From the IMG/VR virus record IMGVR_UViG_3300008108_000092, positions 1-56,663 of that record: a stretch of DNA of 56,663 nt; one strand, written 5' to 3'. Below the pieces are notes generated by a model. The model saw nothing but the letters and a program-made list of their open reading frames with translations. It was not told where the DNA came from and searched no databases. Origin of the DNA: a virus. This document shows, piece by piece, positions 5,219 through 55,991 of this stretch. The position numbers and the translations under genes were made by a program. Each line of letters opens with the position of its first letter. The first letter of the stretch is position 1.

Positions 5219-6025
5219 TCATATTTTGAGTTTAAGCATTTCACTCGCATATTTTGTTATATTGGGTAGTGTAACAATATCAACATTAGCATCCAAATGA
5301 CTGGTTAATAATTGATAAGTTGTGTCTATTATAGGAACGTTTTTATTAAAATCATAAAAAGTATATTGTTTAAATATATAAGATAAAAACATTGAAATCC
5401 AATTTGGTTCTGAATAATGAGAGGACAAAAATCTTGAGAATTCTTCAATACAAGGTTGTTCAGAATTAAAGCATTCTAATTGTGTATTACGAGCTTTATG
5501 CACATAATATAATGATTTAGCTCGTTCAAACGGATCTCGTATGCTAATAAACAATTTTATCTTATATAATGTTTTTAAATAGTCTAAAATCAGGCTCAAC
5601 TGTTCTTGGCAATGATCTTTAATAATAACAGAGGTCATGGCTACAGCAAAAATATAAAAGCATTTTGAAGACGCGTAGTCTATAAATTCATTAGTTGACA
5701 TGCGGTGAATGTTTTCTGATATTACAAACTTCGGATTAGCAATGCTCGGATTTTGAGTAATATAAATTAACGCAAAAGGTTCTTTCGATTTGTCTGTAAT
5801 AAAAATTGCTCCTGCCTTATTTTGATGTAGTTTTTTGCCGTATAAACAATAAAATTTGTTTAGTAAAAAAAAGCTTCCTCTAACATAAGTTCCTCCACAT
5901 TTAGGAATATGAATGAACACAGGTATCTCATTTTGCTTTACTAAATCAGTAAGCCCGTTTATTTGGTCTAGTTGGTTTTTAAGAGCAAATTGTTCAATTA
6001 TCTCTAAATGAGATTTTACAATCAT
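5219..6025 (-). CDS. Sulfotransferase-family protein
   Basis: 268 residues. Two family signatures are visible. Residues 38-46 read IHIPKCGGT, the 5'-phosphosulfate-binding loop of PAPS-dependent sulfotransferases (Sulfotransfer_2-like). Residues 163-174 read RDPFERAKSLYY, the 3'-phosphate-binding motif. Such enzymes transfer sulfate from PAPS to carbohydrate hydroxyls or other acceptors. In a virion-gene neighbourhood that also contains three glycosyltransferases, the acceptor may be a glycan, which is inference. The upstream region is AT-rich without a clear ATAAATA box or Shine-Dalgarno. Confidence 0.82.
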   Translation of the reverse strand: MIVKSHLEIIEQFALKNQLDQINGLTDLVKQNEIPVFIHIPKCGGTYVRGSFFLLNKFYCLYGKKLHQNKAGAIFITDKSKEPFALIYITQNPSIANPKFVISENIHRMSTNEFIDYASSKCFYIFAVAMTSVIIKDHCQEQLSLILDYLKTLYKIKLFISIRDPFERAKSLYYVHKARNTQLECFNSEQPCIEEFSRFLSSHYSEPNWISMFLSYIFKQYTFYDFNKNVPIIDTTYQLLTSHLDANVDIVTLPNITKYASEMLKLKI

Positions 6026-9650: not shown

Positions 9651-10982
9651 TTATGCTTTATGAACATTTCCATCAAACGTTTGTTTAAAATTTTCATAGT
9701 ATTCGTGTGCGATAATAATATCAGAAATGCCCAAAAAATTAATTAGCTGTCTTATTGCATACGTTTGAGTAGACCATTCATCATTTTCTGTCATTAGAGT
9801 TGAATGTAAATTTCCATCAATAAATGCTTTATGGGTTAAATTTATATTCAATGAAAAATTAATATCATTTGAGTATGTTTTTTCATTGATTAAAAAAATA
9901 GGAAAAAAAACATCAGTATCAAAACGTTGAGGAAGTTGTATTGGCAAAGAATTTGATGCTATCACTAAAATAGGTTGTTTTCCACAAAAGCAGTGTTGTT
10001 GAAGTTTTAATAAAATATTTTGACACTCTATTTGTAGTTCTTTATGTTTTGCTGAAAACATAAAGAAATTTTCGTACTCCAGAACCACGAATTTAAAATT
10101 AACGAATCTGAGAAATAAACAACTCATTATCGTGTTAAATAATCGATTTGAGTTAATGTCTTCTTTGGTATTTTTTATAGAAATTAACAAGTCAATTAAT
10201 AATGAGGCTACTCTAAAACTTTCAATAAATAACAGCGATGAATGTGTCCTGATTGCTGACTTTTCATGTATTGTGTAGTAGTTCAATGCAGTACTTTCAT
10301 ATGCTATTTTGTCGGTCAATATGATATTGATATAAAACCACCAATCTCCAACAAGCTTGAAGTTCTTGTTGATTATATTTTTTAATAAGCACAGCGCTTT
10401 TTGTTTTTTAAATACTGTTGCACTACCATTAGGTATAATATTTAAAATAGCAAAACTTCTCCAAATTTCTTCTATTCCTGGCACGCAATAGTTCGTCAAC
10501 CAAAAAGTAGGACTCACACAATCAGTATCACGTATGAATGGATAGCGTTCCCGTATTTCATTTTTTATTTTAGACGTACTATTAAACTCTCGCAACAAAT
10601 TTCCGCTTTCATCAACAGGTAAAGTTTGGCAATAAGCCAAAGTAACGGCACCATCTTCAAATTTTTTAACCATTGTTTCTAAAAAACGTTTATCTGAAAA
10701 ATCATCAGCTTCCGCAATCCAAATGAGATCGTGGGATGCTAGTTCAATTCCCTTTTGCCACTGTTTGTAACCTGAACCACTATTTGTTGAATTGATAACC
10801 AACTTGTATGGAATTGTCGACGTCTCGCAAAAATTTTGAATAATAGATATACTATTATCTGTAGAGCAATCATCTAATATAATTATTTCTGAAGGGGGGT
10901 AAGTTTGGCTTGCTATAGTTTCAAAGCGTTTTGCTAAAAATTTAGCACAATTATAATTAGGTACAACAACAGAAACTTTCAT
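9651..10982 (-). CDS. Family 2 glycosyltransferase
   Basis: 443 residues from the ATG at 10982, where the GT-A fold begins directly as MKVSVVVPNYNCAKFL. Visible signatures are the first strand SVVVPNYN, EIIILDDCSTDNS around residues 38-50 (nucleotide-sugar binding), and LIWIAEADDFSDKRF around residues 92-106 with an acidic DxD-type cluster (EADD) for the metal. The C-terminal 200 residues are unique and might bind acceptor. It would transfer a sugar from a nucleotide sugar to an unknown acceptor; phage enzymes of this type modify DNA, virion glycoprotein or host glycans. It is divergent from the gp26-like gene. Confidence 0.88.
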   Translation of the reverse strand: MKVSVVVPNYNCAKFLAKRFETIASQTYPPSEIIILDDCSTDNSISIIQNFCETSTIPYKLVINSTNSGSGYKQWQKGIELASHDLIWIAEADDFSDKRFLETMVKKFEDGAVTLAYCQTLPVDESGNLLREFNSTSKIKNEIRERYPFIRDTDCVSPTFWLTNYCVPGIEEIWRSFAILNIIPNGSATVFKKQKALCLLKNIINKNFKLVGDWWFYINIILTDKIAYESTALNYYTIHEKSAIRTHSSLLFIESFRVASLLIDLLISIKNTKEDINSNRLFNTIMSCLFLRFVNFKFVVLEYENFFMFSAKHKELQIECQNILLKLQQHCFCGKQPILVIASNSLPIQLPQRFDTDVFFPIFLINEKTYSNDINFSLNINLTHKAFIDGNLHSTLMTENDEWSTQTYAIRQLINFLGISDIIIAHEYYENFKQTFDGNVHKA

Positions 10983-11099
10983 TTTTTTATAATATAAATT
11001 ATGTAAACAAAAAAAATAATCCATAAAAATTGTAATTTTTAAATTTATTAAACAAATAGTTAAGTTAAATTTTAATGGTTGAACTTGAAATTGAGTTTA

Positions 11100-38100: not shown

Positions 38101-39834
38101 ACATATGATAGTAAATCACTTGGCGCTCAACCTTATTGGGCAGAAAAATATGTTAGTAAATCTCCTTCAGTAAATTTTGGTGGACTATTTGATTGGGGAT
38201 ACCCTCAAGAATGGATCGAGAATTATCTACCAGATTCTACTCCTAAAATTTCTAATTTAACGTTTGCTTTTGGACAAGTTGTTGAATATAAATCACTAAG
38301 TTCTTCATTTGTTTGGAATCAGCCAATTGAATATCAAACATACGTAGGGTCTCCAAGATGGTGTAAAGTTAATAGATATAGTGAAAATCCGACTCCATTA
38401 TCTGCAATTTACTCCATTAAAGCTTTTCAAGATACATATTCAAAAGCAACATTTGAACCTACTGACATTCAACTGAGCAATTACATAGATGGAAATCCTC
38501 TGGAAGTATTTTATCACGCTCTTGGAGATCCGTTTGTGTGGTCTATAAAAACAGACGTATTATCTGGAGACAACATAATCAAAACAAATTATATCTCAGT
38601 GACATCGGATCAATCATACAATGTATTATCTAATAGAAATTATCCAACGATCGCTACTGTTCCTGTTGTTGAAGATCTCTATAGTAAAAAAGATGTAGGT
38701 GGATTTTTTATTCCTAATGGTTTAGGTGCTTCGAATTTTATTAATAAAAATTTTACAATAAAATTATCAGGAGATGTTACAGATGGCCTAGAAATTTTCA
38801 CTAGTGAGTTAAACCCAGCAGGAGGAAGAGGGTTGTCTAAGCAGCAGCAAAAGGTTCCTTTCATTTGGGAAGATGACAATCAATGGATAAAAGCTCCTCT
38901 TAATTCTGGAGCTTTTGCTGGTTCTGTGAGAAAAACGTTAACAAAAAATTTACAAACATTTATTCCATATACTGAATGGACTGGTCAGTTTACTTACGGT
39001 CTAGTAACTCCTGAAAGCCGTACTTCTCCTTGGGGAGGAATAACAGAAACGACTTGGACTGATTTGCAAAATTATCCAAAGACCTTTGCTGGAGTACCTA
39101 ACATGCCAGCTTGGAATAAAACGCAAATTTTAAAGTATACTCAAAAAGAAGTTGATTGTTGGACTTCTGATATATTTGGTAATCAATATGGTTTATACAA
39201 ACCGTTATCAGCAGCACCAGTCAAAGATCGGATTAATGAAGTTGGAGAACTCTGGGTAAAAACAAAAGAAAACAATGTTTGGCCAGCAACCCAGGCTTTA
39301 TCAGCCATATTTGAACCTTTTGAAACTATAAATTTAACTTTATATTCTCAATTAACCGGAGGGCAAATTAATTTAGTTGACTGTTTTGGGGATGTTTTAT
39401 TTTTGCAAACTTCAACTGCAGTAATTTTCGCAAAACTTCTATACGATCAAAGCACTTCTTTAATTAATACCACATTGGACGATATGAGGTTTTTAATTTC
39501 TATGGGAAATAATTCTCAGAGGTTCGGACAAACCTGGTATTCACCTAAGCAAAAGGCTGTTTATTTAGCAACAGCTTCTATAAAAAATTCATTACTTTTT
39601 CCTGAATTGTATGAAGTCAGTACCTCTTCTTTTAATTTAATAAAATGCTTTCCAACGCTCGAACAAGAACAAACCTTAAATGAGCAATTACAAACAATTT
39701 CAGCTAAAACAATCGAATCTTTATTGTTAACATATAACGAACAACTGCGTAAGTATGCAATAACAATTAACGGCACTAATAATATCAACAAACCATTCAT
39801 CGTTAATTTAGTATTACAACATGAAAATATGTAA
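35173..39834 (+). CDS. Giant structural protein, probable baseplate or fibre-network component
   Basis: 1553 residues from a GTG; an ATAAATA box 9 nt upstream supports it. The first 200 residues are helical ([20 protein letters not shown], then [15 protein letters not shown]), a segment I associate with very large wedge-region proteins of marine T4-like phages. Later regions are beta-rich with a Cys-containing stretch ([22 protein letters not shown]) around residues 625-660. Residues about 820-950 hold an Ig/PKD-like domain ([15 protein letters not shown]) duplicated in the next gene. The 3' end overlaps the next gene by 14 bases. No enzymatic motif seen. Confidence 0.72.
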
Positions 39835-40819
39835 AATTGAAATATTTCAAGATCAATTGTTGTCCGAACCTCCTATAGTGGTGTCTCCATTTGAAGTAGT
39901 TCATATTACTACTTGTAAGCCTTTCGATGTTTTTATTGAGACTATTCCTTTTCCTGTTAATTTTAAATTACTAAATTTTAAAAACGAAACAACGAATAAA
40001 GGTAGTATATGGTCTACCTATGATTATATTGCACTTGATTCAGATAAACCATCTACGTTAATTTCGTGGCCTCAAACATTTACTTTTAATAGTGAGCAAA
40101 TTCCATCGATGACCTCTGCTCAATTGTTATCAGTGGTATCGTGGTTAGTTGTTCACGAGGAAACTCAAGCAAAGCAATCTTTTTCTGGTCAGGAAACTTT
40201 GATTTTTACCCCTAGTTTATCTGGAACATATAGCATTTCAGTAAGTGCACTAACAGAAGAAAGAGAATTAATATACTTTAATAAAATTCCAAGGCTTACT
40301 GCTGTACCTTTAAGTGATATTAGTATTTCTTCAAGTCAAGGAAAATTTAGTGGAACTTTTTGCGAAGAAGGACTTTACCAAATTGGTTATCAGGTATATA
40401 ATGAATTTGGTAAAAATACATATTGTCTTAGTTTATCAGCATCTAATCCTCCACCTCCGTCACCTACTCCAACTGTTACGCCTACTTCGACGGTTACGCC
40501 TACTCCTACTATTACACCTACTCCAACTGTTACACCGACGATCACTATTACTCCAACAATAACTAAAACTCCTAATTCAACTCCTGATCCAACTAACACT
40601 CCAACACAAACGATTACTCCTACTATTACACCTACGATTACAATCACACCAACAATTACTCCAGAACCAACTAAATGGGTAATGCCGGAAGTATCTCCTC
40701 GATGTGAACCGCTTCCAACTCATTGTCCTCGTCCGACTCAAACTCCTTATCCGACACCTACTCCAACTCCTAGTAAAAAATGTGGTTGTAAAATTAAACC
40801 ATGTCAACATTCTTGTTAA
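39821..40819 (+). CDS. Virion protein with Ig/PKD-like domain, TPT stalk and Cys-rich tip
   Basis: 332 residues. Residues about 50-165 ([15 protein letters not shown] through [15 protein letters not shown]) duplicate an internal domain of the preceding 1553-residue protein at both protein and DNA level. A second short beta segment follows. Residues 210-285 are a Thr-Pro repeat stalk (TPTPTVTPT-type). The C-terminal 45 residues hold eight cysteines ([14 protein letters not shown] through [14 protein letters not shown]), probably a compact disulfide- or metal-stabilised tip. Its start lies 14 bases inside the upstream gene, so translation is likely coupled. Confidence 0.75.
40449..40668 (+). 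repeat. Thr-Pro codon repeat (TPT stalk) in the 332-residue protein
   Basis: Degenerate tandem of hexapeptide-scale units encoding T-P-T-(V/I)-T-P and variants such as [12 protein letters not shown] shorter [11 protein letters not shown] segment follows at about 40743-40775. Similar arrays occur in three other genes of this window. Confidence 0.9.
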
Positions 40820-45549: not shown

Positions 45550-45556
45550 TATTTAT
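45550..45556 (-). promoter_or_regulatory. Late-promoter-like box, 11 nt before ATG 45538
   Basis: ATAAATA touching the 3' end of the upstream gene. Confidence 0.5.
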
Positions 45557-46674
45557 TATTTTAATTGTTTTAACTCAATGGCTGAAATGTCTTTCCAAAC
45601 TTTTCCATCCGTCCATGTTTGATCATCATTCCAAGTTGTTTGAATTTCAAATACTTCCGTAGGAGTTGGTGTTATAGTTGGAGTTGGTGTGATAGTTGGA
45701 GTTGGTGTTATAGTTGGAGTTGGTGTTATAGTTGGAGTTGGTGTTATAGTTGGAGTTGGTGTAGCATTTGTTATGAAAATGCTGGTAGAAATGTCGGTTG
45801 CTTTTTGTTGGCTTAATGTCTCTACTCTTAATGCAGGTAGTGGTATGATAATAGTTTCTGGGTTATAACTTAAATTTAGATTGTTTGGGGAACATCCTAA
45901 AACCAATGGTTCTTTAGAAAGATAATACAAAGAAAGATTGTTGTCATTAGTACTAGACAATACAACTTTTGAAGATAATATAACTTTATTTTCTTGTAAT
46001 TGAAAGTTATTAGTAGTTGCTAAAGAAAAATTACAATCGTTTGAATTTGATTCACTAAAGTTGTTTATGAGAGTAATTCCGTCTATTCCATCTATTATAA
46101 GATTGAATCTAGATACTTGAGCTTTATCAATAAAAAAATAATACTGTCTTTGTGAATTTATATTTACGGTCTGATTGTTCGATTCAATTAGAATTGTATC
46201 AACTGGAGTTTGTTGAATGTAACTTGTTTGATTTACAATTGTAGTATTTGCTGAGTTGTTGTTTCTTGAAAGTTCAACAATACCTTCTAAAAAATTTCCA
46301 GTTAATAGTTCCGAATTAGTATTATTTTCATTTTTATAGCCAAATGTTGTTCCTAAACGAGCTTCGGTAAATTGAATACTTGACTTAAAAAGACCATCTA
46401 CGGAAACTATCATTGTTTTAAGAGGAGTTTTAGACTCTACTAGATTATTAAAAAACAAGCTGTCTTGAAAATGGTTTCTTTGAAATGAAATTTCTTGAGA
46501 TGCATTAAATTTAATTTCTGAATTAATTTTAAAAGAAAATAACCGTGATGCAATATCTACAGGAACTAAACTAGGCGTTGGCGTGGGAGTTGGTACAGGA
46601 GTTGCTTTGGGTTTAGTTTTCCATGAAGATCTGTCTATTTTTATTTTTTTTCCTAGTATAAAAGGATCACGCAT
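45556..46674 (-). CDS. Virion protein with FGY domain and C-terminal TPT stalk
   Basis: 372 residues from the ATG at 46674. A longer TTG-start frame exists, but an ATAAATA box sits exactly 5 nt before this ATG. A short [11 protein letters not shown] linker is near residue 30. Residues about 70-155 are an FGY-type domain (SSIQFTEARLGTTFGYKNE, LLTGNFLEGIVELS). A second beta region (FFIDKAQVSRFNLIIDGIDG) follows. Residues 304-340 are near-perfect I-T-P-T-P-T repeats coded by an 18-bp unit, and the protein ends in a Trp-rich 30-residue segment (TTWNDDQTWTDGKVWKDI), a possible trimerisation or docking tip. Confidence 0.75.
   Translation of the reverse strand: MRDPFILGKKIKIDRSSWKTKPKATPVPTPTPTPSLVPVDIASRLFSFKINSEIKFNASQEISFQRNHFQDSLFFNNLVESKTPLKTMIVSVDGLFKSSIQFTEARLGTTFGYKNENNTNSELLTGNFLEGIVELSRNNNSANTTIVNQTSYIQQTPVDTILIESNNQTVNINSQRQYYFFIDKAQVSRFNLIIDGIDGITLINNFSESNSNDCNFSLATTNNFQLQENKVILSSKVVLSSTNDNNLSLYYLSKEPLVLGCSPNNLNLSYNPETIIIPLPALRVETLSQQKATDISTSIFITNATPTPTITPTPTITPTPTITPTPTITPTPTITPTPTEVFEIQTTWNDDQTWTDGKVWKDISAIELKQLK
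45655..45764 (-). repeat. 18-bp tandem repeat coding ITPTPT
   Basis: About five near-identical 18-bp units plus a partial one. On the plus strand the unit reads GGAGTTGGTGTTATAGTT, with one copy having GTGAT. The near identity indicates recent expansion or homogenisation. Confidence 0.93.
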
Positions 46675-46679
46675 GCAGA

Positions 46680-46686
46680 TATTTAT
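46680..46686 (-). promoter_or_regulatory. Late-promoter-like box, 5 nt before ATG 46674
   Basis: ATAAATA; picks this ATG over the upstream TTG. Confidence 0.62.
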
Positions 46687-46752
46687 CAAGTTTTCTTTTA
46701 AAAATATTAAATTCTGAACGTAAAATATATTATGAATTTTTATTGAGTTTGA

Positions 46753-48537: not shown

Positions 48538-50196
48538 ATGCATAAAGACAACTTTTATTGGCTTAATAAAGACTCCCGAAAATTCTTAGAACGTGGGTAT
48601 TTATTAGAGGGAGAAACTGCGGAACAACGTATTGAGGATATTGCACAAGCTGCTGAGAAATATTTAAATATTCAAGGATTTGCTAAAAAGTTTACAGACT
48701 ATATGGCTTTAGGATTTTATAGTTTATCGTCTCCAATATGGTCAAACTTTGGTCGAACTCGCGGACTTCCTATCTCTTGCTTCGGTTCATATATTTCAGA
48801 TACAATGGAATCAATTTTAGGAAAAATTGCTGAAGTTGGAATTATGACAAAACATGGAGGAGGTACTTCTGCCTACTTTGGGTCGATCCGTGGACGGGGC
48901 ACTCCAATTTCATGTGGAGGAGAATCTACGGGGTCAGTTCATTTTATGGAACTGTACAACAAACTCATGAATGTTGTATCTCAAGGCAATGTAAGACGAG
49001 GATCTTTTGCAGCATATCTACCAATTGATCATAAAGACATAGAAGAATTTCTTCAAATTCGTTCGGAGGGTCATGATATTCAAGAAATGTCTTTTGCTGT
49101 TTGTGTTCCTGATAAATGGATGAAAGAAATGATTGAAGGAGATAAAGAAAAGAGAAATGTATGGTCTAAGGTTATTAAAAAACGTTTCGAATCAGGATAT
49201 CCTTATATAATGTTTTCGGATACTGTTAATAACAATTCTCCACAAATCTATAAAGAAAAAGGAAAAACAATTAACAATTCGAATCTTTGTAGTGAGATTG
49301 CTTTGTCGAATGATGATGGAGAATCATTTGTGTGTGATTTATCTTCATTGAATTTAGAACGCTGGGATGCTATTAAAGATACAGATGCAATTGAAACTCT
49401 TGTGCTGTTTTTAGATGCAGTAATGACTGAATTTATCAACAAAACTGAGGGCATGCAGTTTATGGAAGCTCCTAGAAAATTTGCAATTAATCAAAGAGCT
49501 CTTGGAGTAGGAGTACTTGGTTGGCACTCTCTGCTACAATCCAAGATGATTGCTTTTGAATCGTTTGATGCTAAAATGCTAAATGCTGAGATTTGGAAAA
49601 CAATTAGAGAGAAAGCAGATAAAGCAACTTGCGAATTAGCTTGTTTATTTGAAGAAGCACCAATTTATAAAGATTCGAAAGAAAAGAGAAGAAATACTAC
49701 AACTCTTGCAGTTGCTCCTACGACTTCCTCCAGTTTTATTCTAGGTCAAGTTTCTCCATCAATTGAACCTGAAAACAGCTGTTATTATGTTAAGGATCTA
49801 GCAAAAGGAAAATTCACATACAAAAACCCTTATCTTAAACAAATACTAAAGGATAAAAATAAAAATGACGACGAAACGTGGATGTCAATTCTTTCTCATG
49901 GTGGTTCTGTTCAGCATCTTGATTTTTTATCAGATCACGAAAAAAATGTATTCAAAACTTTCGGAGAAATTTCTCAAAAAGAAATTGTCATTCAAGCTGC
50001 TCAAAGACAAAAATTCATTGATCAATCTCAAAGTTTAAATTTAATGATACCTCACGACGCAAAGCCGAAAGAAGTAAACGAACTTCTGATTTTTGGCTGG
50101 GAGCAAGGAATTAAAACATTTTACTATCAAAGAAGTTCTAATCCCTCACAAAAATTAGCAAGATCTATTATGACTTGCACTAGTTGTGAAGCATAA
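48538..50196 (+). CDS. nrdA: Ribonucleotide reductase class I, large subunit
   Basis: 552 residues, shorter than the 750-760 of E. coli or T4 NrdA. Catalytic residues are all visible: Cys81 in LPISCFGSY, Asn249-x-Cys251-x-Glu253 in SNLCSEIAL, Cys266 in VCDLSSLNL, the radical-transfer pair Tyr529-Tyr530 in TFYYQRS, and the C-terminal redox pair Cys547 and Cys550. It starts at the catalytic domain, so the N-terminal ATP-cone that carries the overall activity site is absent. It reduces ribonucleoside diphosphates with NrdB for phage DNA synthesis. The last eight codons are duplicated at 51678-51701. Confidence 0.95.
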   Translation: MHKDNFYWLNKDSRKFLERGYLLEGETAEQRIEDIAQAAEKYLNIQGFAKKFTDYMALGFYSLSSPIWSNFGRTRGLPISCFGSYISDTMESILGKIAEVGIMTKHGGGTSAYFGSIRGRGTPISCGGESTGSVHFMELYNKLMNVVSQGNVRRGSFAAYLPIDHKDIEEFLQIRSEGHDIQEMSFAVCVPDKWMKEMIEGDKEKRNVWSKVIKKRFESGYPYIMFSDTVNNNSPQIYKEKGKTINNSNLCSEIALSNDDGESFVCDLSSLNLERWDAIKDTDAIETLVLFLDAVMTEFINKTEGMQFMEAPRKFAINQRALGVGVLGWHSLLQSKMIAFESFDAKMLNAEIWKTIREKADKATCELACLFEEAPIYKDSKEKRRNTTTLAVAPTTSSSFILGQVSPSIEPENSCYYVKDLAKGKFTYKNPYLKQILKDKNKNDDETWMSILSHGGSVQHLDFLSDHEKNVFKTFGEISQKEIVIQAAQRQKFIDQSQSLNLMIPHDAKPKEVNELLIFGWEQGIKTFYYQRSSNPSQKLARSIMTCTSCEA

Positions 50197-50245
50197 ATAT
50201 TTTTCAACACGATAAACAAATGTTAATAGTTGTAAATTAATTATG

Positions 50246-51001
50246 TTACAAGAATCCCGAAAGTGGGGTTTTACTTGAAATAAGCACTTTTGAAACATCA
50301 GACCAATGGTTTGGATAATTTTGTAAAAGATCTTGCATTTGTTGTTCTAATTTTTCTTTAGTAGTGTGATGGTGATATCCACGGCCTAGAACTTTATCGC
50401 ATTCCGGAATTCGTGAACTAATTTGAAGCTTTCTTTGAATAAATCTATCATTCCATGGAGAATACATATATTTTAAAATTATAAAATCATCACAATTACA
50501 CTGGTTTGATGCAAAATGTCTTCCTAATGGATATTGTTTTCCTGAATAATTATGAAGAGACCGACAAGTCCACAATTCAGCAAGAGGTGGCCCTCCATAT
50601 CTTTTTTCTTTCAGTAAATCAATAGGTTGAGAATTACTTTTTAAAGATTCTTTAGATTCCAACATAATATATATTTGTATAAGTTTATCTAATCGATTAG
50701 TATCTGAAATTAATGTTGAATAATCTCCCACTAAAAACTCTGTTGTGTTTAAACACACTCTCCAATCGCTGATACCTTTTTCATATTCTTGTACTTCTTG
50801 GTCGACTAAATCTGACTGAAAGTTGTTATTTTTACTATTATGTATAGTCCAATTCGGACATATTTCTTTTATTATGTTTACAGAATTGTCTGTAGAGGCG
50901 TAATTAATAAGAATACCATGATCAAAAAACTTTTTGTGATGATTAAGCCACCACGGTAATAAATATTCTTCGTTGTAAAAATGAGAAATTATAGTTTTCA
51001 T
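50246..51001 (-). CDS. Glycosyltransferase, GT2-like (Glyco_tranf_2_4/GT92 type)
   Basis: 251 residues. The N-terminus reads KTIISHFYNEEYLLPWWLNHH, then GILINYASTDNSVNII, the diagnostic pair of the Glyco_tranf_2_4 group: N-E-x-x-x-L-P-x-W followed by a strand and (D/S)-T-D-x-S. The central part (QPIDLLKEKRYGGPPLAE) and a C-terminal HHHTTKEKLEQQM helix complete it. It would add a sugar to an unknown acceptor. Its ATG shares one base with the stop of the upstream glycosyltransferase (TAATG). The pair lies on the strand opposite nrdA and is bounded by duplicated nrdA sequence. Confidence 0.82.
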   Translation of the reverse strand: MKTIISHFYNEEYLLPWWLNHHKKFFDHGILINYASTDNSVNIIKEICPNWTIHNSKNNNFQSDLVDQEVQEYEKGISDWRVCLNTTEFLVGDYSTLISDTNRLDKLIQIYIMLESKESLKSNSQPIDLLKEKRYGGPPLAELWTCRSLHNYSGKQYPLGRHFASNQCNCDDFIILKYMYSPWNDRFIQRKLQISSRIPECDKVLGRGYHHHTTKEKLEQQMQDLLQNYPNHWSDVSKVLISSKTPLSGFL

Positions 51002-51588
51002 TAATTGTGCACGAAAAGTACCCCAGGTGCTTTTACGGGGTTAGTTTTACTAGCTATTTTTTCCGCGTATTTGCCATCAGCACAGGAATCGAAGTCCGTC
51101 CAAGGTGTGTCTTTAATTAAATCAATATGAGACATAAATGCTCCCATATCTATTTGAAATAGTCGGGGGTGAGCAACTAAAACGTTATAGTTAAATTCCC
51201 AACAAACCATGTCGCAAATTACCATTTTAGAATTACAGCTAATTGCTGTGTTTAACATTCTCTCTAAAAATACAGGTGAGTAATAATTGTCTTCATTGGT
51301 ATATACAACCCAATCCGGTAATTCACCCATTAATGACACTTTATGTCTATGGTAAAACCCACAATGTCCCTTATGATCTAGATCATCGATAAAAACTACT
51401 TTATTGCTCAACTGTTGAAACCTGTGTTTTAAAGTTTTGTCTTCAACAGGACCATCGTGGTGTATATATATTTCAAAATTTTCGTAAGTTTGACATAAGA
51501 TAGAATAGACGCACGAAAAAGCAGCATCTACTCTTTTTGGTAAGCCGTTGAAATATGCAGATATGCAAATTCTAATTTTGTTATTCAT
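51001..51588 (-). CDS. Glycosyltransferase family 2-like, compact
   Basis: 195 residues. RICISAYFNGLPKRVDAAFSC, then YSILCQTYENFEIYIHHDGP are the first strands of a GT-A fold, and WVVYTNEDNYYSPVFLERML supplies the metal-binding acidic motif (N-E-D-N) in the DxD position. The HPRLFQIDMGAFM segment and terminal GVLFVHN are typical of family-2 acceptor loops. It is shorter than most family members but looks complete. It is translationally coupled to the downstream glycosyltransferase. No late box or Shine-Dalgarno is apparent. Confidence 0.8.
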   Translation of the reverse strand: MNNKIRICISAYFNGLPKRVDAAFSCVYSILCQTYENFEIYIHHDGPVEDKTLKHRFQQLSNKVVFIDDLDHKGHCGFYHRHKVSLMGELPDWVVYTNEDNYYSPVFLERMLNTAISCNSKMVICDMVCWEFNYNVLVAHPRLFQIDMGAFMSHIDLIKDTPWTDFDSCADGKYAEKIASKTNPVKAPGVLFVHN

Positions 51589-51677
51589 TTTAAATTTAAA
51601 ATATTTCTATCTAGAGTAAGTAAGTTTTGAAAAACCATTTAGTTAATTATCTTTTTGGTTAAAACTTAATATTACGA

Positions 51678-51701
51678 ACTTGTACTAGTTGTGAAGCATA
51701 A
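51678..51701 (+). pseudogene. Duplicated 3' end of nrdA
   Basis: Eight codons, T-C-T-S-C-E-A-stop, matching 50173-50196 with one third-position change (TGC to TGT). The identity continues two bases beyond the stop (AA) and breaks immediately upstream. No nrdA sequence precedes it, so it is an isolated tail on the far side of the glycosyltransferase pair. Confidence 0.88.
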
Positions 51702-51706
51702 AACTT

Positions 51707-51799
51707 TCAAGCAAGCACCTCAACAGTATGTCCTCGTTCTTTTAATAAAACTGCTGAAACAATTCCGCTTAATCCACAGCCAATAATATTGACTTTCAT
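51707..51799 (-). pseudogene. Truncated N-terminus of a FAD/NAD-binding enzyme, UDP-galactopyranose mutase-like
   Basis: Open frame of 30 codons plus stop starting MKVNIIGCGLSGIVSAVLL, then KERGHTVEVLA. This is a dinucleotide-binding Rossmann start: beta strand, G-x-G-x-x-G, helix, and an acidic residue at the end of strand two. The wording is close to the start of UDP-galactopyranose mutases and related amine-oxidase-fold enzymes. The stop falls where the catalytic domain should continue, and the frame ends 6 bases from the duplicated nrdA tail. A broken gene is the best reading; a functional micropeptide is unlikely. Confidence 0.75.
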
Positions 51800-51810
51800 T
51801 TAATTTTGAA

Positions 51811-52104
51811 TTATATTCCAGGAATAGTACCAAAAAATTGAATAGTACCAAAAAATTGCGTTCTGTAATATAAATCGCCATTACCAGTTGCACTGAGTTC
51901 ATTAGAGTTATTGAGTCCTCTAAAAGTAAACTCTGTATTAGCTTTTACTAAAAATCCTACCGAAGGATTTTGATAATCAAAAAAGACATAATCTACTAAA
52001 GGTCTTACAATTACTTCTGAACAAAGCTGATCAGTAAGAATTGTTTTTGTATTATTACCATTTAAAAAGAAACTTTTACAAACATTACGATTTTGATATC
52101 CCAT
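51811..52104 (-). CDS. Small probable virion protein
   Basis: 97 residues from the ATG at 52104 (MGYQNRNVCKSFFLNG). An ATAAATA box sits exactly 5 nt before it; an upstream in-frame ATG at 52119 would lie upstream of the box and is less likely. The sequence is beta-rich (ILTDQLCSEVIVRPLVDYVFFDYQNP, VKANTEFTFRGLNNSNEL in parts). The C-terminus contains an 18-bp tandem duplication giving QFFGTIQFFGTI. I recall similar short proteins in marine T4-like phages, without known function. Confidence 0.68.
   Translation of the reverse strand: MGYQNRNVCKSFFLNGNNTKTILTDQLCSEVIVRPLVDYVFFDYQNPSVGFLVKANTEFTFRGLNNSNELSATGNGDLYYRTQFFGTIQFFGTIPGI
51826..51861. repeat. 18-bp tandem duplication
   Basis: Two direct copies of AATAGTACCAAAAAATTG in the 3' end of the 97-residue gene, adding six residues in frame. 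Confidence 0.9.
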
Positions 52105-52195: not shown

Positions 52196-52420
52196 ATGGC
52201 AAAAAATGCTTATGAAATTCGTTTAGATGTAATGCAAATGGCTCATGGAGATGAAATGAACAAATACATCGAAAAGTTAAATACTCATAGAACATATGAC
52301 AATGCGAACAATATGATTAATCCTTCAAAAGAAGTTATTGATCAATTATTCCCTAAAACGTCAGATATCATTAAAAGAGCAGAAGAGCTTTACGCTTTCG
52401 TTGAAGACACAGGTCTTTAA
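52196..52420 (+). CDS. Small conserved phage protein
   Basis: 74 residues, MAKNAYEIRLDVMQMAHGDEM then two further helices. The N-(A/P)-(Y/F)-E-I-R-L-(D/E)-(V/L)-(M/L) start is a pattern I associate with a small protein widely conserved in T4-like cyanophages and related marine phages; its function is unknown to me. AAAGGA lies 10 nt before the ATG, a Shine-Dalgarno rather than a late box. The gene is followed directly by a strong rho-independent terminator. Confidence 0.78.
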   Translation: MAKNAYEIRLDVMQMAHGDEMNKYIEKLNTHRTYDNANNMINPSKEVIDQLFPKTSDIIKRAEELYAFVEDTGL

Positions 52421-52560: not shown

Positions 52561-53040
52561 ATGACACAATTAACAGCATACGTTCCTGGACATTTTTCGT
52601 CCACAGAGAGGGTTTATCGCCAGTTGCCCGCTTTGTTTAATGATAACTGGCTTAACAACGTCTTCGGAGAAGTAGATAAAGCATTTGATGTTCCAAATGC
52701 AGTATATCCTTATAATGTACTCCAAATTCGAAACGATAAGCAAGAAGTAACGCAATATGAAGTTGAAGTTGCTCTAGCTGGTGTTGGTAAAGAAAACATT
52801 GATGTAAAAGTTAGAGACGGAAAACTCCATATTAATATTCTTAAAGAAAAAGAAGAGCCGACAGATACTGTTGCTTATTTAAAAAGAGGAATTAGTCAAA
52901 GAAAAGGAAGCATGACGTTTAATCTTGACGATAAAGTCAATTCTAAGAAAATTAGCTCCACTTACAAAGATGGTCTATTGAAAGTTGTAATTCCAGTAGT
53001 GAAACCTGAAACAATAGATATAGACATTAAAGTAGCTTAA
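52561..53040 (+). CDS. Small heat-shock protein, Hsp20/alpha-crystallin family
   Basis: 159 residues. The alpha-crystallin domain spans about residues 48-150: PYNVLQIRNDKQEVTQYEVEVALAGVGKENIDVKV, with the A-L-A-G-V core, then KLHINILKEKEE, a connecting FKRGI-like segment (AYLKRGISQRKG), and YKDGLLKVVIPVVKP with the conserved G-x-L-x-(V/I) motif. Such ATP-independent holdases are common in T4-like cyanophages and other marine myoviruses and probably protect virion assembly or host proteins. An ATAAATA lies about 60 nt upstream and a TATAAAT just before the ATG. A bidirectional terminator follows. Confidence 0.93.
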   Translation: MTQLTAYVPGHFSSTERVYRQLPALFNDNWLNNVFGEVDKAFDVPNAVYPYNVLQIRNDKQEVTQYEVEVALAGVGKENIDVKVRDGKLHINILKEKEEPTDTVAYLKRGISQRKGSMTFNLDDKVNSKKISSTYKDGLLKVVIPVVKPETIDIDIKVA

Positions 53041-54425: not shown

Positions 54426-55991
54426 ATGGAGTTAGAGCTAAAAGATTTTAAGTGTAAAACGGTTAATGGTAAATACAGCTGGGATGCTGGAGTTCCAACT
54501 GGTACGTCTTTGCTTTCTGCAACTATTGACGATGAAACTTTACAGTATATTGGCTATGCTCCAACCACTATTGTATCTTTTAGTGCTTCAGTAATAAATC
54601 CAAATTCGAATTATTATGCCTTTAAAAGAGTTGTAGATTTTGGGGATTTTTATAATTCAGAAACTAATATTCAAAATTCTCTTTCTCAAAAAGACTCGTT
54701 CTTTTGTCATACATATATAATGCCTGGAACGTATACTTTAACTGTTACGCAGACACAATATGTTGTATTAACATCTGAAAAAGAAGAAAATACGTATAGA
54801 GAAGACGGAGTTGCAGAAAATGATATTTTGCCTCACGAATGGAAATGGCAAAGCTTTTTTTGCAGTGATCCTGAAAAAATTTCTTCGTTAAAATCTTATT
54901 ATGTTACTTGGGATGATTGTAAATTTCAATCTCCTCTTCAGAATACATGGAATGATTTAGCAAACAGTACAAACGGAGACTATGAAAATTGTCCGTGTAT
55001 ACCTACTCCAACTATCTGGAATTGGTTTACGTTTTTGTCTGCTAATTACACGGAAGATGTGGATTTTAATACGTTTAAATGGAAAAGTTATACTCTTTCT
55101 GGGTGTGCTCCTATTACCTGGAGACGTTTAATTCAATCATCAACCCAAGAATGCGAAATAAAAGTTCCACCATTATCAACTGAAGTTGTAATTCAACAAA
55201 AACAATTGTTTCTAAAAGTATTAGAAATTCCACCAACAGCTTATATTGAAGTAATTTCAATACAAGCTAATAAAGTGTCTCCTTATACTGTACAATTATC
55301 TCCAAGAAAAATACGGTGTGGAAGCTTTCCTATAGAAAGATTAGTCTGGGATTTTGGAGATGGCTCTCCATTACTAGAACAAGTAAGAGGAGAAGTAAAG
55401 CCAGAGTTTCCTTTTACATGGACAAATTCTTTTGATTATGATTCGGAAGATATACGTAATTATGATGTAATTCATACATATAATAGAACTACCGAAACTG
55501 GTAATTGCTTTTATCCGTCAGTGACGGCTTTTGCGTCTTCTACTGAAACTTTTGATTGTGCGTCAGTCGTAATAGGACCAATTGCTTTTGAACCTCATAA
55601 AAATGTTTCTCTGCTTCAAAATAAATTGCTCGAAAATGAACGGATTGTTTATACAGGACAAATTGATAATAGTGCGGTACTTTGGTTAACTGACGAAAAA
55701 AATTATACCGTTATAGTAGATCCTAGTCCGACGCCCACGCCGACACCTAGTGTAACTCCTACTCTTACACCAACTCCAACGGTAACACCGACTCAAACAC
55801 CAACTCCAACAGTAACGCCGACTCCTTCTATAACACCAACTCTTACTCCAACACCAACACCGACACAAACAAAAATTCCTGATTGCGATTTAGATTCTAA
55901 GGTACTCGAATGTGACTTAGAATCTAGAATCTTAGATTGTGATTTAGAATCCAAAATCTTAGATTGTGATTTAACAATGAAATTATTATAG
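54426..55991 (+). CDS. Adhesin-like protein: PKD-type domains, TPT stalk, repeated Cys tail
   Basis: 521 residues. Residues about 45-115 ([39 protein letters not shown]) and 285-400 ([32 protein letters not shown]) are PKD-type domains with the D-F-G-D and H-T-Y hallmarks. Between them lies a Cys/Trp-rich region ([17 protein letters not shown]). Residues 433-483 are a TPT stalk, then four copies of a nine-residue unit C-D-L-E-S-(K/R)-I-L-D end the protein. A TTAAATA box lies 11 nt before the ATG. It is probably a surface-exposed virion fibre. Confidence 0.78.
55723..55871 (+). repeat. Thr-Pro codon repeat (TPT stalk) in the 521-residue protein
   Basis: Tandem T-P-T-P-(T/S)-(V/I/L) units from [12 protein letters not shown] to [10 protein letters not shown]. 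It joins the PKD domains to the repeated cysteine tail. Confidence 0.92.
55884..55985 (+). repeat. 27-bp tandem repeats coding CDLESKILD
   Basis: Four units of nine codons ([35 protein letters not shown]), DNA unit close to TGTGATTTAGAATCCAAAAT. They give an evenly spaced cysteine every nine residues. Confidence 0.9.

Follow-up and report, generated by a model that had tools for sequence, protein, structure and literature searches.

A copied nrdA gene end and a truncated UDP-galactopyranose mutase gene around a glycosyltransferase pair at a variable slot of a T4-like phage contig

Integrases that act at tRNA genes or at other gene 3' ends restore the end of the gene they enter. Where T4-like phages have imported genes, the junctions are usually clean, with little information on the route by which a gene arrived. 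In T4-related genomes, junctions typically bear no signatures of mobile elements, and for them illegitimate recombination together with invasion by free 3' ends has been proposed (PMC2993671). PeSL-mediated modular shuffling has also been described for T4-type phages (Arbiol et al. 2010 and Comeau et al. 2014, as cited in PMC4177764 and PMC4503421). Some phages carry a gene for UDP-galactopyranose mutase (UGM), an enzyme of galactofuranose synthesis. Such a gene has been reported for Agrobacterium phage Atu_ph04 (PMC6630229). Here we describe a junction next to nrdA at which a copied end of the neighboring gene and a truncated gene survive together, and at which relatives show the slot empty or with other cargo.

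The window, by which we mean the whole stretch of DNA analyzed, is the 56,663-bp IMG/VR virus contig IMGVR_UViG_3300008108_000092. Its T4-like genes, recognized by Pfam, include a gp25-like baseplate wedge, a gp44-like clamp loader, and a tail collar domain. The nrdA product is 93-94% identical in amino acid sequence to those of four loci (L001, L002, L003, and L015; loci are given as L numbers throughout), and the closest relatives of the Hsp20 protein are those of L068 and L124 (92%) and L132 (94%). The features of the region between these two genes are listed in Table 1.

Table 1. Features of the window from nrdA to hsp20
Feature	Coordinates	Strand	Evidence
Intact nrdA (552 aa; large subunit of class Ia ribonucleotide reductase)	48538..50196	+	PF02867, E=4e-97
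Copy 1 of the nrdA 3' tail (seven codons and stop, plus one base)	50173..50197	+	
GT1 glycosyltransferase, GT-A fold, Glyco_tranf_2_4	50246..51001	-	PF13704, 31.7 bits (cut-off 27.5)
GT2, probable family-2 glycosyltransferase	51001..51588	-	PF00535, 20.3 bits (below cut-off 23.3)
Non-coding spacer, GT2 start to tail copy 2	51589..51677	.	
Copy 2 of the nrdA 3' tail, not attached to a gene	51678..51702	+	
UGM 5' stub, 30 codons, pseudogene	51707..51799	-	Similarity to phage UGM N-termini
o102, phage protein of 102 aa	51811..52119	-	Abuts nrdA in L004/L015/L009
o74, small conserved gene at the edge of the variable slot	52196..52420	+	
hsp20, gene for a small heat-shock protein at the conserved right border	52561..53040	+	PF00011, E=2.5e-14

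The end of nrdA, ACTTG[C/T]ACTAGTTGTGAAGCATAAA, recurs beyond the glycosyltransferase pair with 24 of 25 positions identical and a longest exact run of 19 nt. A sequence-only reading of this DNA had recognized both the recurrence and the one silent change between the copies (TGC/TGT), although it counted eight codons and a stop where positions 50173-50196 encode TCTSCEA*, seven sense codons and a stop. At up to 3 mismatches the whole contig holds only these two copies, and the best other match to the 24-nt tail on either strand is only 16/24, which puts the repeat far beyond chance. The two tails match each other at 23 of 24 positions, and among the other nrdA tails compared, none agrees with either of them at more than 21 of 24. 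Because the tails are near-identical while even the nearest nrdA relatives average only ~80% nucleotide identity to the window gene, copy 2 appears to be recent; it looks like a derivative of the window's own tail or of that of a very near relative.

We considered whether copy 2 is instead all that remains of a second nrdA, two whole copies having once flanked the cargo before one lost all but its last 25 bp. Copy 2 does end exactly at the gene end, where nrdA abuts o102 in relatives, but when the sequence upstream of it was aligned to nrdA, the similarity was no higher than that of shuffles, and a deletion that stopped exactly 24 nt before the gene end offers no simplification over a short copy. 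Such a history is therefore improbable. Downstream, the repeat extends slightly better than shuffles do, a level that 15 of 300 shuffles also reach and that is too weak for use.

Non-genic explanations of the tail were examined as well. That it might be a widespread, unrelated regulatory sequence was rejected, since each of the viral contigs matching a degenerate pattern of the tail (9/9) has a true nrdA end at the match. The junction gave no Rfam match at the gathering score, neither tail has a terminator-like site or stem-loop, and promoter-like hits stood at the chance level (13 versus 15 expected) in a scan without phage-specific promoter types.

The slot between nrdA and o74/hsp20 varies among relatives. 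A scan for nrdA gave 79 loci, and the nrdA ends of about 70 were compared. As the sequence-only reading had suggested looking for, an empty site exists, in seven relatives (L001, L002, L003, L007, L011, L070, and L077). Elsewhere the slot holds o102 (L004, L008, L015, L050, and L009), a gene encoding a YdjM-like membrane protein (L006 and L068, with the Pfam match tested in L006), or a 94-aa ORF (L038 and L048). In L006 and L068 the start of the YdjM-like gene overlaps the nrdA stop codon (TAATG). Because none of this other cargo shows a sign of surface modification, a hotspot for surface-modification genes, as first proposed, is too narrow a description. In three lineages (L004, L015, and L009) the stop-to-stop distance between nrdA and o102 is 0-1 bp, and in the window 109 bp, including the stub, separate copy 2 from o102; since nrdA abuts o102 in those lineages, copy 2 and the stub occupy the expected place of the single nrdA end. 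The window's o102 itself contains an 18-bp tandem duplication at 51822-51857 (GAATAGTACCAAAAAATT twice), and its C-terminal region is six residues longer than in relatives; a scan for o102 found no match.

A second nrdA tail was found in none of the ~70 relatives, not even where the slot holds other cargo; the best second match to a locus's own tail was 17/24, against 14-16 for reversed-tail controls. The different cargo sought between tail copies thus exists at the slot, but without the second copies. No close relative has a UGM gene at the slot, so the full-length mutase that might have lain downstream of nrdA was missing there, and none of the relatives has the GT2-GT1 pair after nrdA. Nor did any relative have an nrdA that ends in the exact window tail CACTAGTTGTGAAGCATAAA without the insert; no intermediate genome was seen.

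Because the window, a virus contig, is classed as linear, one may ask whether assembly fused two metagenomic sequences at the repeat into a chimera. Assemblers usually use k-mers longer than 19 nt, however, and with an exact shared run of only that length, and copies that differ, an assembly artefact is a very unlikely explanation. To the right of the repeat, moreover, the o102-o74-hsp20 order is the same as in relatives.

The arrangement also invites a site-specific reading, in which a cassette carrying the tail as its att core integrated at the nrdA 3' end and restored the end of the gene. One tail is in frame with the gene and the other closes a 1.5-kb insert on its far side, so that a direct repeat of the gene end stands at both insert edges, as in an integrase-type cassette, and the cargo of the slot does vary among relatives. 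The same repeat does not, however, surround other cargo in any of the ~70 relatives compared, and the ends of the insert bear no inverted repeats. No recombinase was recognized in the insert or elsewhere in the window: a Pfam scan of window ORFs other than those of 2152 aa and 1553 aa turned up neither an integrase nor a transposase nor a homing nuclease. We regard site-specific integration as very unlikely. The same low standing applies to a broader version, in which the phage nrdA 3' end would be a landing site for exchangeable cassettes moved by a recombinase from elsewhere in the genome or from the host. If that were true, a core metabolic gene would mark a cargo dock in this phage group. 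Of the site-specific cargo exchange initially proposed, with truncation of an earlier glycan gene, the truncated gene stands, as described below, and the site specificity lacks support, given the missing second tails in relatives, recombinase, and inverted repeats.

The ~1.5-kb insert between the tails contains two glycosyltransferase ORFs alone, which overlap on the minus strand as TAATG, in keeping with the coupled pair on the opposite strand seen in the sequence-only reading. GT1 (251 aa) belongs to a family in which all 12 aligned members match the PF13704 family. Its predicted structure (pLDDT 78) has its best PDB matches by Foldseek among the glycosyltransferases SunS, ThuS, TarS, and TarP, with E-values down to 9e-8 and, in this top group, modest TM-scores of 0.37-0.48 of the query. 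As to a metal-binding DxD motif, the GT1 family reads LNTTEFL, with E and F invariant, at the place of IEIDEFL in the glycosyltransferase of L119. GT2 (195 aa) has a weak PF00535 match (Table 1), the orthologue in L095 scoring 22.8 bits; its structure model was poor (pLDDT 45), and fold matches were ignored. Four GT1-family genes also occur in tandem on one phage contig (L116:5593-8810).

The pair is found, adjacent and in the same order, in L095 (a 192-kb contig) and in L093, each time in another gene context. Amino acid identity to these loci is 64% (L095) and 62% (L093) for GT2 and 46-48% for GT1, and nucleotide similarity to L095 stops at the GT2 start codon. Direct searches of viral and genome collections found no relatives of GT2, which were encountered only beside those of GT1, and no relatives of GT1 were found in bacterial genomes. 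Because the same pair is a unit known elsewhere in a different context, it was probably imported, entering as a foreign cassette. Both genes are presumably expressed, and their products may glycosylate virion proteins or host-surface sugars. The contig encodes long Thr/Pro-rich (TPTPTP) repeats at 39821-40819, 45556-46689, and 54426-55991, in probable structural proteins, which are conceivable glycan acceptors. Two ORFs far from the pair also deserve mention: a further family-2 glycosyltransferase at 9651-11024 (PF00535, E=7e-26), distant from the nrdA slot, and an ORF at 5219-6025 without a Pfam or NCBIfam match. The latter has a HIPKCGGT motif, which we take to be reminiscent of sulfotransferases.

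Five bases (51702-51706), rather than the six first counted, separate the stop of copy 2 from the last codon of the stub. The stub begins with an FAD-binding GxGxxG motif, IIGCGLSG, and matches PF13450 at 22.0 bits (cut-off 21.9), and profile searches alone place its 30 residues ambiguously among Rossmann nucleotide-binding enzymes. We derived a DNA pattern from the stub motif, which led to L118 and L119, and a scan with both gave 33 phage loci encoding UGM relatives, whose N termini align with the stub. The full-length L118 and L119 proteins carry the UGM domain PF03275. Stub residues 1-29 are 55-76% identical to full-length phage UGMs, and individual values are 69% over 29 aa for L118, 78% over 23 aa (residues 7-29) for L119, and up to 76% for L141. 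This match rules out an origin from another Rossmann enzyme and bears out the proposal that the 30 codons resemble a UGM start cut off by a stop, to be identified by searching them against UGM families.

At the break point, phage UGMs go on with EIF(E/D)-x-R-x-H, whereas the window reads VEVLA and then a stop. The DNA at the break, GTGCTTGCTTGAAAG, contains CTTG twice, and CTTGCTTG may be a 4-bp duplication that created the stop of the stub. Since the ORF has 30 aa, against a full UGM length of ~330 aa, and the GLF domain (PF03275) is absent, it is a UGM remnant and not a UGM. A conserved micropeptide shared with relatives, which would have spoken against truncation, was rejected, as the stub is missing from all nrdA relatives. 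In the contig of L118 and in L147 the UGM gene lies inside a glycan-gene cluster; L147 and the window have two gene families in common. In L158 and L159 a UGM gene adjoins a very distant nrdA (~25% aa).

Gene trees place the two sides of the slot in different company. In the tree of o178, left of nrdB, the window joins L068 (100/99), and it joins L001/L002/L003/L015 in those of nrdB (99/95) and nrdA (100/99), where a grouping with L068 was rejected (p = 3e-4 and 4e-6, respectively); for hsp20 a grouping with L002/L003/L015 was rejected (p = 4e-6) and L068 was nearest, all these p-values being somewhat optimistic because the groups were picked after viewing pairwise identities. The four trees thus disagree, and therefore the nrdBA block and its flanks differ in history, with the scar inside the right-hand breakpoint interval.

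A homing endonuclease carried inside nrdA of related phages could have driven this exchange by cutting an nrdA without it, after which a co-infecting template would have replaced nrdBA past its 3' end and inexact end-joining would have left the second tail. The nrdA genes of L068, which by o178 is nearest to the window, and of L070 carry a split intein at about codon 251, its halves separated by an HNH-like ORF, and the window gene is uninterrupted. A block of divergent history that comprises nrdBA would fit, as would the descriptions of HEG-bounded exchange between phages (PMC10448857) and of RNR genes as frequent HEG hosts (PMC3653736). The intein site, however, lies ~900 bp from the tail, the process would normally spread the intein and not leave nrdA without one, and no nuclease was recognized in the window. 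As a more specific version of mosaic recombination, this route is unlikely, and the split inteins make homing-driven breaks a possible but unproven trigger. The fractured nrdA genes span L068:5911-8903 and L070:5115-8118, and in L068 both ORFs have Intein_splicing halves.

We conclude that the junction is probably an ordinary T4-type mosaic junction, formed by imprecise, replication-coupled recombination at an already variable slot. This is the most economical reading, and recombination like it has been proposed for T4-related phages (PMC2993671). In a co-infected cell, short-homology or template-switching recombination coupled to replication would have placed the DNA of the glycosyltransferase pair directly after nrdA and copied the last 25 bp of nrdA a second time at the far joint. 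Of a UGM gene formerly in the slot, or entering it, only the 5' end would remain. One recombination event or several may have been involved, and neither copy 2 nor the stub is likely to be more than inert debris. Against recombination of this sort count the exact coincidence of the repeat with the end of nrdA and the absence of an intermediate genome.

The junction is a tangible example with which to ask whether replication-coupled recombination often leaves short copied ends behind, and it shows turnover of glycan genes in this group. Of the known systems, T4-type mosaicism (PMC2993671) has in common with the window that accessory genes are exchanged at a slot between conserved genes, that junctions lack mobile-element signatures, and that gene trees conflict across the junction; the window joint differs in keeping a 25-bp copy of the neighbor's end and a truncated gene. 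PeSL shuffling likewise has a short direct repeat flanking exchanged accessory genes, but the window repeat is the coding end of nrdA, without a terminator-like stem-loop and with promoter-like hits at chance, and is absent elsewhere in the contig. HEG islands and nrdA inteins (PMC10448857; PMC3653736) share with it the exchange around nrdA, as the split inteins of L068 and L070 illustrate, and differ in that no homing nuclease was recognized in the window. The phage UGM genes in glycan clusters (L118, L147, and Atu_ph04, PMC6630229) have N termini with which the stub aligns, although the stub keeps only ~30 codons and lacks the GLF domain. Set beside these systems, the window junction is an ordinary but unusually readable scar of phage gene swapping.
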